Source: a candidate division SR1 bacterium | GTDB taxonomy: Bacteria > Patescibacteriota > Gracilibacteria > Absconditabacterales > Absconditicoccaceae | NCBI GenBank assembly: GCA_007115995.1 | Contig: SKJI01000001.1 | Span: 1-39,523, forward strand | Length of the DNA: 39,523 nt | Direction: 5' to 3' | Part shown: piece after piece, positions 24,119 through 35,075 of the stretch | Layout: every line of letters starts with the position of its first letter | Numbering within the stretch: position 1 is the first letter of the stretch | Translations under genes and position numbers: made by a program | The notes under the pieces: generated by a model | Databases searched by the model: none | What the model was told of the DNA's origin: nothing | The model's input: only the letters and a program-made list of their open reading frames with translations

Positions 24119-24676
24119 TTATACTTTCATAACTTCAGCAGACTTCTGTTTTACTAAATCATCTATAATATCGTTATATTTTTTTACTATATCATCAATT
24201 TCTTGTTCATCTGCTTTTTTTTGGTCTTCTGATATTTCTTCATTTTTATACAAAGTTTCAATATGTTTACGTGCATCATGCCTTTTATTTCTCAATGCAA
24301 TTTTTGCATCTTCACCATCACTAGAAACTACTTTTGTAAGTTCCTTTCTTCTTTCTTGAGTCAATGGTGGTATTTTTATCATGAGATAGTCTCATTGGTT
24401 TTGAGGTGTCAATCATAATTGAGCATCATAAATTGCCTTTTCAATATCTGCAAGTGTTGATTTATCTCGTGGCTCGATTTTTAACGTTTGCGCATCCATA
24501 GTTGATATATTTGCAACCTGATTTAATTTTTGATCCATTCATCGTGATTTTACAAAAACATGTACTTCTTCTACCAGTCATGTTGATGCTCTTCAGAGCT
24601 GCAAACGCAGAAATGATTGTTGTAAATGATCAAGAATTTTTTTACACTCATGATTGAGATCAGCAATTTGTAGCAT
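24119..24676 (-). CDS. frr: Ribosome recycling factor
   Basis: A 185-residue RRF, the usual length, which with EF-G splits the ribosome after termination. Recognisable are I-P-P-L-T-Q-E-R-R-K-E-L, A-K-I-A-L-R-N-K-R-H-D-A and the long helical hairpin ending L-V-K-Q-K-S-A-E-V-M. The N-terminal helix M-L-Q-I-A-D-L-N-H-E-C-K-K-I-L fixes the start at 24676. trhO follows, so translation and tRNA modification are coupled here by position. Confidence 0.95.
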
Positions 24677-28855: not shown

Positions 28856-28912
28856 ACCTAGAAGTATACAAATTCTTTATGCTAATAAAAGTACAAAAAT
28901 CTGAGATAAATT

Positions 28913-28941
28913 TTGCATTTTTTCTTGTTTACCCATATAAT
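28913..28941 (+). promoter_or_regulatory. Promoter of the PKD surface protein gene
   Basis: TTGCAT (28913-28918), 17-base spacer, TATAAT (28936-28941). It lies downstream of an in-frame ATG at 28879 and so argues against that start. Confidence 0.55.
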
Positions 28942-28977
28942 TATGTCGTAAAGTCTTTATTTTTTGCTCAAAAAATA

Positions 28978-31900
28978 GTGCACGTACTTCAACGATCTGC
29001 AGTCAAACAGCTTATTATACTCTGATGCATACTCCTTGGGTCATTTTTAGCACTGCTATTACCTTCACAGGCATATGCTCAATCATCTCTTCCTGATGAA
29101 TTTTTTCCAAATTATCAAATTGCAGATGAGTATGAAAGATTACTTGATTATTTTATTGATATTGAAGCAGCAGCAAGAGTATGAACTGAACTTGAGGCAA
29201 GCATGTTTAGAGATATAAATAATATTTTTCGTCAAGTTTTTACATATTTTCCTAGATCCAGCAGTAATGAAATAGTATATCGTCAATGTATTTTGATTAG
29301 TGATGACCTTGCAAACTGATTTACAAGAGCAAAATATAATACCTTTAGAAATAGATGTTTTGAGTCACTAGGAACAATTATTAGAGATATAAATACACGT
29401 TATACTGTTAATGCAAAAATTACTGCTAATCCCAGAAGATGATCATCTCCGCTCAATGTGACATTTGATGCTAGAGACTCATTAGATCCTTCAAATGACA
29501 CAATCCCTTCATCAAATTTTTATTGGTGGTATAGAGATGTTTTTGGGGTTAATCAACCAATTTGAAGATGACCAGTTGTTAATTATACATTTACAGAGCC
29601 TGGAAATCATATCGTACATCTGACGGTGAGAAGTTCAAATAATTTCTCAGAATGAATTTTTGACTGACAAGATTCAATACAAATTAATGTGGCACCCAAA
29701 GCTGCGAATATGGTAGTATTCATAAATTGACAACGTGCAGAAACCACAAGAATGCTAAAAATTTGAAGTCAAGATGCTAATAATGGTATTTTAATAGATT
29801 GAACTGCTACAGTCCCACTATGAGCAAGAACTATTGTCAATCATAAACGAACAATTAGATGATTATGAGAATTTAGATTTGAAGATATTACTACATGAGA
29901 ATGAGCACCAAGACAGTTTTTATTTAATTTTCCACGTAATTGACTCTATACTGTAGAGCTTGAAGTAATCGATAATGAATGAAATAGAATCACTGAAAGA
30001 TACAACATTTCAGTGTCAGATCCTGTTGCAAACATTAGACAAAAACCAGAAAGATGAACAACATGAACAGAATTTACATTTGACTGATCATCATCATATT
30101 CAATAACATCTAGAATAAGAACATATCAACGAACTATTATTGATCCAAATTGAAGACAAATTGAGTCAATAAATGCTAGAGAAATCAGAAGAAGATTTGC
30201 TATTCCTTGAACATATACGATCAATCTCACAACAACTGACGAACAAGGTAATAGTAGTATTGATACTAAGCAAATAGATGTATGATCATCACCGCCTATT
30301 CCAGCACTAGTGATTAGTCCACAATCAGAACGAAAGCATCCATCACAATTTATACTAGATGCAACATGAACCTTTGATGAAGATGTTAGAGCATGACACG
30401 ATTCACTGACTTATTCATGGTCATTTTCCAACAATAACAATGTCAATATTGATGAGATACTAGAAAATGATGAAAGTAAAATCACCGTCAGTATGGAAGA
30501 ACCTGGTAGCTACAGAGTTAAACTCCTTGTAGAAGATAGATATTGAGAAAGAGCTGAAATAGAAAGGGAGATCACAGTAGTGTCTACGCTTAGACCAAAT
30601 ATTGCAATCAATCCTTGAGTATGAGTTCGATGAGAAGAAATAGAGTTTTTGGCACAAGTAAATAAAACTATAGCTTTTTATCAGCGAGATTTTGGAGATT
30701 GAAAAACACAACAAACGAGAGAGCCAAGAGTAACACACACATATGAAAAATCATGAAGATATATGGTAACATTAGAAGTTATTACACAAGATTGAGAAGA
30801 AAATGAAATTAAGAGATCAGTATTTATGTGACAAAAAGACTTCCCAGTGCCAGCATATTCAGTAAGAGCATCATGAAATACAGAATTAAGACCAGAAACT
30901 ACCTGTACAGATAGCGACTGAGAAGTACATCAAGCATATCAAACTGAAAGATATCAAAATATAACACTTGATGCAACAAGATCAACAAATGCACAATGAA
31001 ACAATAATAATTTACGTATTTCATTTCATCCAAGAAACGATCAAGTATATAATACCTCAGTACTCAGTTACTCATTTCCAGAACTCTGATGTACGAGTAT
31101 TGATTTGTTTGTAGAAGATAGAGGTATTGGAAAAACAGAACAACAAACTATTCGATTTGAAGTGACTAATGCTCTTCCTACACTGCAAAATCTTACACTC
31201 ACATTTCCACAGTCAACATGAACCAATCCTGTATGAATCTGATCAAATCCTGTATGATTTGAAGAAGCACAAGATGTTTTTGCAAACGCCTCGATCATAG
31301 TAAGACTACAAGCAAGATGAGCACGTGATCCTGATGGATTTATTTCTCATTTTAGATGGTATTATTATCCAAGTCATGATCCGATGAGAAGAAAATGATT
31401 TAGAATAACGCCAGGTGATGTACCATTTACTACATTTGTTATACCAAAACCAATGCATGCAACGGAGTATGCATTTGCAGTAGAAATGATAGATAATGAC
31501 AACGGAAGAGTATCAAGTGAAGAAATAGTATGAAAATGACCTATTGTATTCTTCCCACCTGAAGAAGATAGTCTCGATATTCCTATTGTAACATTGACAG
31601 CAAATAGACTTACTGCAAGAGTTTGAGAAGAAATAACCTTTTCTACAAACTCATATGTTCTCTCTGACAATCCAGATTTTGAAGCGACAAGATATTTTAA
31701 GTATGATTTCAATGGAGATGGTATATATGAGATACCTTCAACAAGACAAGATTCAGTAACATATGCATTTACTCAACCTTGAACATATAGAGCAAGAGCA
31801 AGTGTATTTTTTAGATGACGCGCATGAGTCGGTACTACAGACACAATCACTATTCTCAGATGATTAAGACCACATTATGAAGTAGCAACATTTGGAACAA

Positions 31901-33192
31901 CAGCATTGGTAAGAGATTTTAGTGATTGAGATATTATTGCATCAAGATTTTGTATGGATATCAATGCTTGCGATCTTCAGTCATGATCATGAACTGTTCA
32001 AAACAAGGAAGTATTTATCTATGAATATCCTGGACCATGAAGATTTCTTTCAAGAATTGATCTTGTTGATCAATATGCCAATGAACAACGCTGACAAAGA
32101 TTTGTTGATATAGAAACAACAGATGAAGAGTTTGGTATTCTTTCGATACCAGAAGCAAAACCTAATCCAGAATGATGATTTACTATATCTGTATCACAAG
32201 CAATGCGTGATATTAGCATCTATCCAGTTTGGAAATGATCAGGCAACTGTTTTATAGACCTTGATATAACTCGTGACTCAAACTGAGACTGAGATCCCCT
32301 ACGAGATCAAGATATCTTATGTAATGAGTTATCAACAGTACAATTATTCCCAAATGATACGCAACAAATTTGAAGAATCTACTATGTTGCATGATGATCT
32401 ATTCAAGAAGTTCCTCTTATTTTTGATTTTTTTGATTTTGAACCCGATATTAATCCAGAACGAGATCGAGCAAGAGAAAAAATCGAGGCATTACTTGATG
32501 ATATTGCTCGTATCAGCCCAGCACCACAATGAATGAGGTACTATCAAGACCTCCTCATCAATTTAAGGGCATCATTGTGAGAAACATTTGAAATGAACTC
32601 AATAATTGCACAGCTACTAGATTATATCAATCAAAATAGAACATTACTCCCCACATCACATGAAGATGATTTAAGAGTGTTTCTTGCGTCACTTGCAAGC
32701 AATGAAGTAAGAGCTGTTTTTGGTGCAACTCCTTATGAGCTTGCAAAAGGTGAAGTACTAGCATGGTTTTGAGAGTGAGATCAAAGAACACTCATGTGAT
32801 ATTTTAATGATTTTGAGTCTGCATGATGAAATAGAGATGCCATGAAAAACGCTATCGATAAAATATATACCTATGCTGCTGAAAGTGCTCAACAATGAGT
32901 TATAGATATGGTAGATTTTAATTATATCACTGTACAGCTCTGCGATATTGTGAGAGAGTTTGAGCTACCATCACAAAGTTGTGGAACTCTAGTTGAAATA
33001 CCAGAAGAACTAACTGCAGAAAGAGAATCAAGAGAAAGAAGTGGAATAATGAGAGTCATTCTAAGAATTTTATTACGAGTGATAATTCTCTGAGTGTTAA
33101 TTTTTTGAGCTATTGTTGTTATTTTTGCAATCAAAGCTAAAAAGCAAAATGCTGCAAATAATGAACAAGAAGCTAATGAAAAGAATACATAA
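28978..33192 (+). CDS. Giant membrane-anchored PKD-domain surface protein, 1404 aa
   Basis: GTG 28978 chosen: it follows the promoter and begins directly with a signal peptide (about 1-34, ending P-S-Q-A-Y-A-Q-S). At least five PKD-like domains are visible, near residues 146-235, 352-427, 443-535, 539-615 and 871-958. Typical pieces are F-T-E-P-G-N-H-I-V-H-L, F-G-D-G-K-T-Q (the G in D-G is TGA) and F-T-Q-P-G-T-Y-R. CGA before T-I-I-D-P gives Y-Q-W, the usual PKD Trp. A helical region follows, and a membrane helix at about 1355-1391 with a basic tail; a CGA there fits Trp better than Arg. It probably mediates adhesion on the outside. Divergent from uvrB. Confidence 0.88.
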
Positions 33193-33208: not shown

Positions 33209-33236
33209 TTGACAAAAACAAATATTGCAATATAAT
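33209..33236 (+). promoter_or_regulatory. Promoter of the putative non-coding RNA
   Basis: TTGACA (33209-33214), 16-base spacer, TATAAT (33231-33236). The next stop-free frame of useful length is 700 bases away, so it most likely drives an RNA. Confidence 0.7.
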
Positions 33237-33242
33237 AATATT

Positions 33243-33600
33243 GTTCAAGAAGATCATTACAACATATACATGGGTTACTTTTCTGGGAAACCTTCCATCC
33301 CCTCCAAACCGAGAAGGTAGTTGTCTATACTTATCACAAACACTAAACAAAAACAAAAATAGTCGAAAAAAACGACTTAATAAACAAATACAATCCGTAT
33401 TTAATTAGATAAAGATAAGAATAGAAATTACATAAAAAAAGGTAGCCCATAATTGTGGGTAGACTTATGCAAAGGATTGTTATCCAGCATACACACCCGC
33501 AATCATACCTACACGGAAGGGATTATACAATCTAGGTATTTAGAATGATGAAAGCATCATTCAAAAGACATACTGGTCTATTCAGTATGTCTTTTTTTTT
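33243..33600 (+). ncRNA. Putative structured non-coding RNA, about 350 nt
   Basis: It has its own promoter and terminator and no ORF longer than 17 codons. Helices: 33271-33320, TACTTTTC against GAGAAGGTA; AGTCG/CGACT (33361-33377); CCCA/TGGG (33446-33459); GAATGATG/CATCATTC (33543-33562). GATTGT (33475-33480) pairs with ACAATC (33527-33532), while ATACCTA (33505-33511) in its loop pairs with TAGGTAT (33533-33539), which is an H-type pseudoknot. There is no T-arm or encoded CCA as in tmRNA, no GGAAAGTCC core of RNase P and no SRP GGAA/GNAR loop that I can place. The class is unknown. Confidence 0.6.
33565..33600 (+). terminator. Rho-independent terminator of the putative RNA
   Basis: AAGACATACTG (33565-33575), 7-base loop, CAGTATGTCTT (33583-33593), T-run to 33600. 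An 11-bp perfect stem. Confidence 0.92.
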
Positions 33601-33733
33601 GAAAAAATATTATCTCTTGAGTAAAACATGCTTATTTCGTTCAAGAAGCACCATAATAAGCTATATTATTCAATTGACTACGGTAAATATTCAGGCTTTT
33701 TACTTGATTATATAATATATTTGATTGAAGATT

Positions 33734-33891
33734 TATGGAACCTCTGAAAAATTACTTTTTAAACGATTATATACAACAATTATATATCGTTCTCTTTATA
33801 GGTTTATATAACATAGAGGTTCCTTGAGGAAGGTCTTCATGCGGGAAATATTTTGTTTTATCAATTTTTAACTTTATTTAGCCCTTCCTTA
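33734..33891 (-). mobile_element. MITE-like palindromic repeat, full copy
   Basis: About 158 bp in the opposite orientation to the other full copies. On the minus strand it starts TAAGGAAGGGCTAAATAAAG, contains GAAGACCTTCCTCA and AGGAACCTCT, and ends CAGAGGTTCC. The outer bases are TA on both sides, suggesting a TA target. Confidence 0.8.
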
Positions 33892-33935
33892 TAATTATTC
33901 AATAATATGATTGACTTTTTATTTATAAATTATCA

Positions 33936-35075
33936 ATGGAACATCAAATAATTTCTACAGGCCAATATATGGCATGTCAGACAGCTGAAACTATGAAAAA
34001 GTTTCTTGACAACCCTGAAAATAAGGATAAAATTTTTTCTATCGTTGAAAAAATGATCACAACCTACAACAGCCCAATCTATCCTAGACGTACCAACCGA
34101 ACAGACTGGAAAGAAAATCCAGAGTTTTCATATTATATCCCAAAGCAAAAAAATAATATCAATAAAAACGATATACTTAATAAGGCATTAAAGCTTGATA
34201 AAATTCAGCTGCAAAATATATTTGGACAAACAACCGAGGATAGTTTAGATAATACTAAAAAAATTATCCTAGAGTCAAATAGCTGAAAAATTATAAACGC
34301 AGAGAAACTCATAGAAGTATTGGACAGTACTAATAGTACTAATATAAAGGAATCTTACTCACTTAACGACTTATACGATGAGTTCTTTATAAATAATACG
34401 ACGAGCTTACGTGATTTCTATCCAAACCGATATCGCGATAATACAGCTATAGAAGAACAAACTGACCGAAAATTATCAGATGACAAAAAAGAGAAATTAC
34501 AACATTATAATATAGTTGAAGAAATCTATGAAGAATTTAATCAAGATAACGATCAAATTTTGAAACGATTATCAACTATAGAACTTAAAGATCAAAAAGA
34601 TATTTCAAATATTCCAGCAAATAAAGAACAGATAGATGAGATCTTAGTAGAAATAAAAAATAATTATCCTAATCTTCTTATCAAATATGCACCATATATA
34701 AGAAAAAATTGGGAAAACATAAATACAGAACTCAGTGACAGAATATTATACCATACATATTCAGTATTATTTAGTACTGCATACCAAAAAATAGGAACAT
34801 TACTCGGCGATTCTAAGCATATAGAACTCATAGACAGAGTATTTGGCAAAAATTCAGTAGATAATTTTATAATCCTAGCACGTACTCCATGACAATATGC
34901 ATGACTATCTCTTCAAACTGTTGAACAGATGAAAAAAATGAAAGAACTCCTTGGCGATCAATTTAATAATTACTGTATGGCACTAGCACATACACCATGA
35001 CAATATGCATGACTATCTCTTCAAACTATTGAACAGATGAAAAAAATGAAAGAACTCTTCGGAAATCAATATTAG
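33936..35075 (+). CDS. Hypothetical protein with a C-terminal tandem duplication, 379 aa
   Basis: ATG 33936 to TAG 35073. Charged and helical, no signal peptide or membrane helix. The last part is a duplication with a 108-base period: 34874-34949 and 34982-35057 are almost identical and code P-G-Q-Y-A-G-L-S-L-Q-T-V-E-Q-M-K-K-M-K-E-L and its twin. Elsewhere it uses GGA/GGC for Gly more than its neighbours; four of its five TGA codons are in the duplicated units. That difference, and the flanking repeat, hint at separate origin of parts of the gene. Family not recognised. Confidence 0.65.

Follow-up and report, generated by a model that had tools for sequence, protein, structure and literature searches.

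The locus and its predicted transcript

In the window, i.e. the whole stretch of 39,523 nucleotides analysed here, a gap lies between the gene of a PKD protein (28879-33192) and ORF379 (33936-35075). All features of this gap described below are on the plus strand. The sequence TTGACA-N16-TATAAT at 33209-33236 agrees with the sigma-70 consensus in all 12 positions, in line with the consensus promoter of an earlier note on this DNA, and only three exact consensus sites are found elsewhere in the 39.5-kb window. Transcription would start near 33243. At the other end lies an intrinsic terminator (33563-33603), the stem of which (33563-33595), given previously as 11 bp, comprises 14 pairs and is followed by a T-run; three terminator-like sites were found, against 0.3 expected. 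The resultant transcript (33243-33603) would be about 350 nt long.

The minimum free energy of 33242-33605 is -98.9 kcal/mol, corresponding to a z-score of -9.7 against dinucleotide shuffles, and the z-score of the inferred transcript (33243-33598) is -7.0. Across the approximately 350 nt there is no convincing open reading frame, in agreement with the earlier note. A 16-codon frame from the ATG at 33269 is not conserved among the homologs described below, one of which (G005) has TAG at this position and another (G015) a stop after four codons. The small open reading frames within the RNA are not conserved and were rejected. The promoter, the strong terminator, a fold far below that of shuffled sequences and homologs with the same fold bear out the proposal of a free-standing structured RNA; as far as sequence can tell, the gene for a folded non-coding RNA in 33209-33600 is real.

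ORF379 encodes a 379-residue orphan protein with only five TGA codons and a C-terminal tandem repeat (TPGQYAGLSLQT.EQMKKMKEL). It has no match in the 48 other genomes of the host family and none in Pfam over the cut-off. Since it is an orphan present in no other family genome, ORF379 was rejected as a partner of the RNA.

Relatives and common fold of the RNA

A DNA BLAST search of 59 relatives with the RNA returned no homolog, but only A-rich chance matches. The PKD-protein gene, on the other hand, has orthologs in 48 of the 49 family genomes, and the gaps downstream of 30 of these orthologs were read for an RNA. In G005 a homolog was found by this synteny, downstream of the PKD-domain gene as in the window. 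It has the same type of promoter, the strands GGGTTACTT and AGGTAACCC, an A-rich arm, hairpins of the P3 and P4 types and a terminator. Synteny beside a poorly conserved gene can thus reveal RNA homologs that are missed completely by BLAST. Another synteny route, by way of VirB4, was abandoned; the upstream gene order is not conserved and a search there revealed no RNA.

A trimmed covariance model built from the window copy and G005 only (R1) found a further copy in G015 independently, with an E-value of 0.0046 genome-wide and of 2.6e-4 in another run. The match of R1 to a copy in G065 was weak (E 1.25). The exact two-strand pattern of helix P1, however, was matched only seven times across 84,980 genomes, and within the family by G065 alone (JAHDCT010000050.1); the homology of G065 is further supported because so rare a pattern matches this family member. 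The other six matches of this 84,980-species scan are scattered and have chance-level scores. The G015 and G065 copies lie elsewhere in their genomes, both with a TTGACA promoter and a T-run terminator, and a near-consensus TTGACA promoter stands upstream of all three homologs. Diverged relatives in no fewer than three further genera of the family, represented by G005, G015 and G065, are therefore well supported on sequence and predicted fold.

Two further models, R2 and R3, were run over 353 genomes of the class, and only the same four copies appeared real. R2 was swamped by A-rich sequence, and its other top hits were rejected on inspection by eye; the other hits of R3 were low-scoring and not individually read. 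Viral contigs gave no match, and among plasmids and phages there was a single match, of 31 nt and at chance level. Since the first step of the class-wide search fragments long RNAs, and the window copy itself drops half its score in it, the absence of copies elsewhere should be taken as provisional. As far as seen, the RNA family would be restricted to one bacterial family in which TGA is read as glycine (code 25). In the tree of the PKD protein the four copies fall in separate lineages, formed by G005, by the window genome, by G065 inside the group of its genus, and by G015, whose sister is G004. Such a distribution would fit a single ancestral gene beside the PKD gene, followed by moves and losses.

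Independent minimum-free-energy folds of all four copies share one topology, a four-way junction that contains Pa, Pb and P2 and is closed by P1. On the 3' side of this core, P3 follows in all four copies, P4 in three of them, and then the terminator. The well-supported helices of the window RNA are P1 to P5 and the terminator. P1, which together with the junction forms the main structure and had been missed in the earlier note, pairs AUGGGUUACUUUU (33270-33282), the best conserved sequence of the RNA (pairing probability 0.75-1.0), with AAAGGUAGCCCAU (33438-33450). It is 12-13 bp long and conserved in all four copies, with compensatory changes and one invariant U-G wobble. Its sequence GGGUURCUUYU is nearly fixed, an exception to the free covariation of the core; the near-fixed sequence and the invariant wobble suggest that P1 may be recognised.

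Within the junction, the Pa hairpin GGGA[AACCUUCCA]UCCC (33285-33301) is found in the folds of the four copies and in the alignment. The Pb hairpin CUC[CAAACC]GAG (33302-33313) is weak in the window copy and strong in G005 and G015. The P2 arm (33317-33431) pairs 33317-33335 with 33414-33431 (pairing probability 0.91-1.0), and its A/C-rich loop (33335-33413; 58% A) contains two CAAAAA motifs; of 78-nt stretches drawn at random from the window, only 1.1% have two or more. The P3 hairpin AUUGUGGGU../..ACCCGCAAU (33452-33503) is present in all four copies with different sequences. P4, AUACCUA/UAGGUAU (33505-33539), occurs also in G005 and G065 and is absent from G015. P5, GAAUGAUG/CAUCAUUC (33543-33562; pairing probability 0.99-1.0), occurs also in G065 and is absent from G005 and G015.

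Covariation, which had been proposed as a check on the RNA, was counted in a gapless core alignment of the four sequences, trimmed by hand and fitted by eye to this structure. The core helices covary: both partners differ in 15 of 26 pairs, all seven counted pairs of P2 covary, and 99% of the cells are paired. None of 500 shuffles reached these values, and slid structures paired 45-58%. In addition, RNAalifold applied to an untrimmed MAFFT alignment recovered P1 and hairpins at the positions of Pa and Pb unprompted. Although strong, the covariation is not conclusive, because the alignment was fitted by eye and holds only four sequences.

An H-type pseudoknot at the 3' side had also been proposed, and it stands only in part. 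Both strand pairs exist as written, namely GATTGT (33475-33480) with ACAATC (33527-33532) and ATACCTA (33505-33511) with TAGGTAT (33533-33539), and the second stem is the conserved P4. The arrangement as a whole, however, was looked for and not found in G005, G015 and G065, and a comparable one arises by chance in 8 of 300 shuffles and 12 of 216 window tiles. The first helix competes with part of P3: the local hairpin GGAU/AUCC, predicted at a pairing probability of 0.93-1.0, would have to open for it to form. A better candidate for a tertiary pairing, itself unproven, is a kissing contact between the Pa loop CCUUCC (33291-33296) and the P4 loop GGAAGG (33515-33520). This contact has 6 perfect base pairs in the window and 5 in G065, is weak in G005, and is not significant by shuffling.

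It could be argued that the whole is a functionless chance structure in an intergenic gap, since promoter-like sites are common in AT-rich gaps. The z-scores of the four independent copies (-7.0, -11.7, -14.0 and -6.3) are all below -6, and the covariation and the synteny in two genera speak against chance as well. This explanation is thus extremely improbable, and we regard the reality of the RNA family as nearly certain.

Comparison with known RNA families

The Rfam search suggested previously (Rfam 15, 4227 models) left the RNA without a match to any known class. There was no match in the whole window at gathering cut-offs, and the matches at E<=10 in the 33209-33600 region and at E<=1 in the homologous loci were all at chance level. 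SRP families are among neither set. RNase P RNA (RF00010), as a rule encoded once in a genome, was located at contig C11 of the host genome (G000:C11; a 367-position match, E 9.8e-29), with no match in the window, and tmRNA (RF00023) over the cut-off at G000:C29; ARAGORN found no gene in the window. The statement that the RNA is neither tmRNA nor RNase P RNA is borne out by these results; as for SRP RNA, which was not located in the genome, no SRP model matches here.

A known housekeeping RNA of these three kinds, diverged beyond recognition, is nevertheless conceivable. The size and the promoter are housekeeping-like, and the G065 copy lies about 150 nt upstream of dnaX, a position taken by SRP RNA in Bacillus. 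Such divergence is very unlikely, given the separate RNase P RNA and tmRNA genes, the failure of every Rfam family to fit, and an SRP apical-loop signature that was not seen.

The comparison with 6S RNA (RF00013) is of another kind. The RNA is in a similar size class and has a promoter of similar strength, and the near-consensus promoters suggest strong constitutive expression. 6S RNA was found neither in the window nor elsewhere in the genome, so that the RNA might be its functional counterpart, or some other regulator that acts globally on RNA polymerase or ribosomes. This absence is weak evidence, since the Rfam 6S model also fails in several control genomes, and 6S RNA is a rod with a central bubble whereas the core here is a branched junction. 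We consider such a counterpart unlikely.

CrcZ (RF01675) resembles the RNA in being a free-standing transcript of about 300-400 nt with single-stranded A-rich, ARN-like repeats; it differs in that the four-way-junction core is no part of CrcZ. In Pseudomonas, Hfq is titrated by CrcZ (PMC4063720). The exposed A-rich repeats of an Hfq-titrating sRNA are present here, but the CrcZ model gave only a chance-level score, in the A-rich loop of the G015 copy alone (18.7 bits against a cut-off of 95, E 0.16), and Hfq (PF17209) was over the cut-off in none of the 49 family genomes. As far as this profile can see, an Hfq sponge was therefore rejected.

With OLE, ROOL and GOLLD, the large non-coding RNAs of Rfam, the RNA shares an elaborate conserved fold, its own transcript and a role that is not established; it is shorter, differs in architecture and matches none of their models. 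We conclude that this is a real family of free-standing structured bacterial RNAs, previously uncatalogued and outside all Rfam classes. Homologs are known from three further genera of a single family, and none was recognised in the rest of the class or, beyond the family, in the pattern scan of 84,980 species; the suggestion of a lineage-specific RNA is thus supported. Literature searches turned up nothing published on the non-coding RNAs of these lineages.

Possible function and neighbouring features

The genes downstream of the RNA are unrelated: ORF379 in the window, the gene of an RRM protein in G005 and dnaX in G065. The copy in G015 is preceded by a pair of genes, dnaN and a pilin-like one. 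The differing downstream genes argue for action in trans. A cis-regulatory leader, that is, a riboswitch or attenuator whose terminator controls the next gene, would account for the terminator at the end and for the same-strand genes downstream in the window, G005 and G065. The unrelated nature of these genes is difficult to reconcile with it; moreover, the downstream gene in the window starts 340 nt past the terminator, behind another repeat, and there is no conserved alternative to the terminator stem. A leader is for these reasons quite improbable.

A reduced form of the RNA may exist in G004. There, directly downstream of the PKD gene and with a TTGACA promoter upstream, a 113-nt RNA (L102 3081-3193; fold z-score -7.7) consists only of a P2-like 12-bp stem, an A-rich CAAAAAC loop and a GC-rich terminator. 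It could be a relative that has been worn down, or else a separate RNA built to a like design. The sole feature common to all five loci is the stem with an A/C-rich loop, which contains 2-5 CAAAAA motifs in 51-79 nt and is 67-95% unpaired.

The explanation that we prefer, though with somewhat less than even confidence, is that of a trans-acting structured RNA presenting its A-rich loop to an RNA-binding protein other than Hfq. The RNA would be independently transcribed and ancestral to, or widespread in, one family with TGA as glycine. Its rigid four-way-junction core would expose the single-stranded, A/C-rich P2 loop of 50-80 nt for binding by such a protein, e.g. of the RRM or cold-shock type, and P1 might serve as a second recognition site. 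The RNA would then be either the scaffold of a small RNP or a decoy titrating the bound protein. In G005 the gene of a small RRM-domain protein (L161 4455-4778, minus strand; PF00076, E 1.4e-23) lies directly 3' of the RNA on the same strand. This protein is a candidate partner, only as a hint, since it is a neighbour in G005 only. The protein-binding mechanism itself we hold tentatively, at a little under an even chance: the A-rich loop may be an unstructured spacer in AT-rich genomes, which is a point against it. The small set of four copies, the E-value of just 1.25 for G065 with R1 and the lack of P4 in G015 also count against the explanation.

It is also possible, at a lower but appreciable probability, that the RNA is a trans-acting sRNA that base-pairs with mRNAs through its loops (CCUUCC of Pa, GGAAGGGAUUAUAC of P4) or through an opened P1 strand, the A-rich loop being a spacer. 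The small size of the RNA and its separate promoter and terminator fit this description, as do a P1 sequence conserved beyond the needs of pairing and a purine-rich P4 loop kept in the window copy, G005 and G065. Against it, Hfq was recognised in none of the 49 family genomes, G015 is without P4, and the conserved sequence is mostly within helices.

The presentation of the loop to a protein could be taken further. The RNA might be a housekeeping RNP component peculiar to this TGA-recoded, small-genome family, a junction scaffold with a (CAAAAA)n loop that replaces 6S RNA or an Hfq-dependent sRNA network and is reduced in G004 to the loop-bearing stem; this is speculative and rather unlikely. 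Mimicry of a general mRNA leader by the A-rich loop was rejected, since CAAAAAC lies within 20 nt of just 5 of 186 starts. A conserved RNA outside Rfam with a strong promoter offers a handle on RNA-based regulation in small genomes without a recognised Hfq, the common chaperone of sRNAs, and it is directly testable by means of the covariance model, the five loci and the parts named here.

Apart from the RNA, the window contains a dispersed structured intergenic repeat, the copies of which are 70-76% identical (33728-33935 on the plus strand; 24882-24717, 14413-14206 and, partial, 22968-22900 on the minus strand). It was not seen in the fetched relatives and corresponds to no Rfam family at gathering cut-offs. 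A TTGA links its stems, GGAACCTCT/AGAGGTTCC and GAGGAAGG/CCTTCCT. Three copies are closely followed by a gene in the same orientation, in one case a ribosome-recycling-factor-like gene (24119-24676), and the gene starts beside the copies may need revision. GGAGG does not occur in the last 30 nt before any of 186 start codons of the window and the relatives. The starts are preceded by no Shine-Dalgarno motif and have TATAAT-like boxes close upstream, a pattern that suggests initiation independent of Shine-Dalgarno pairing and short leaders.
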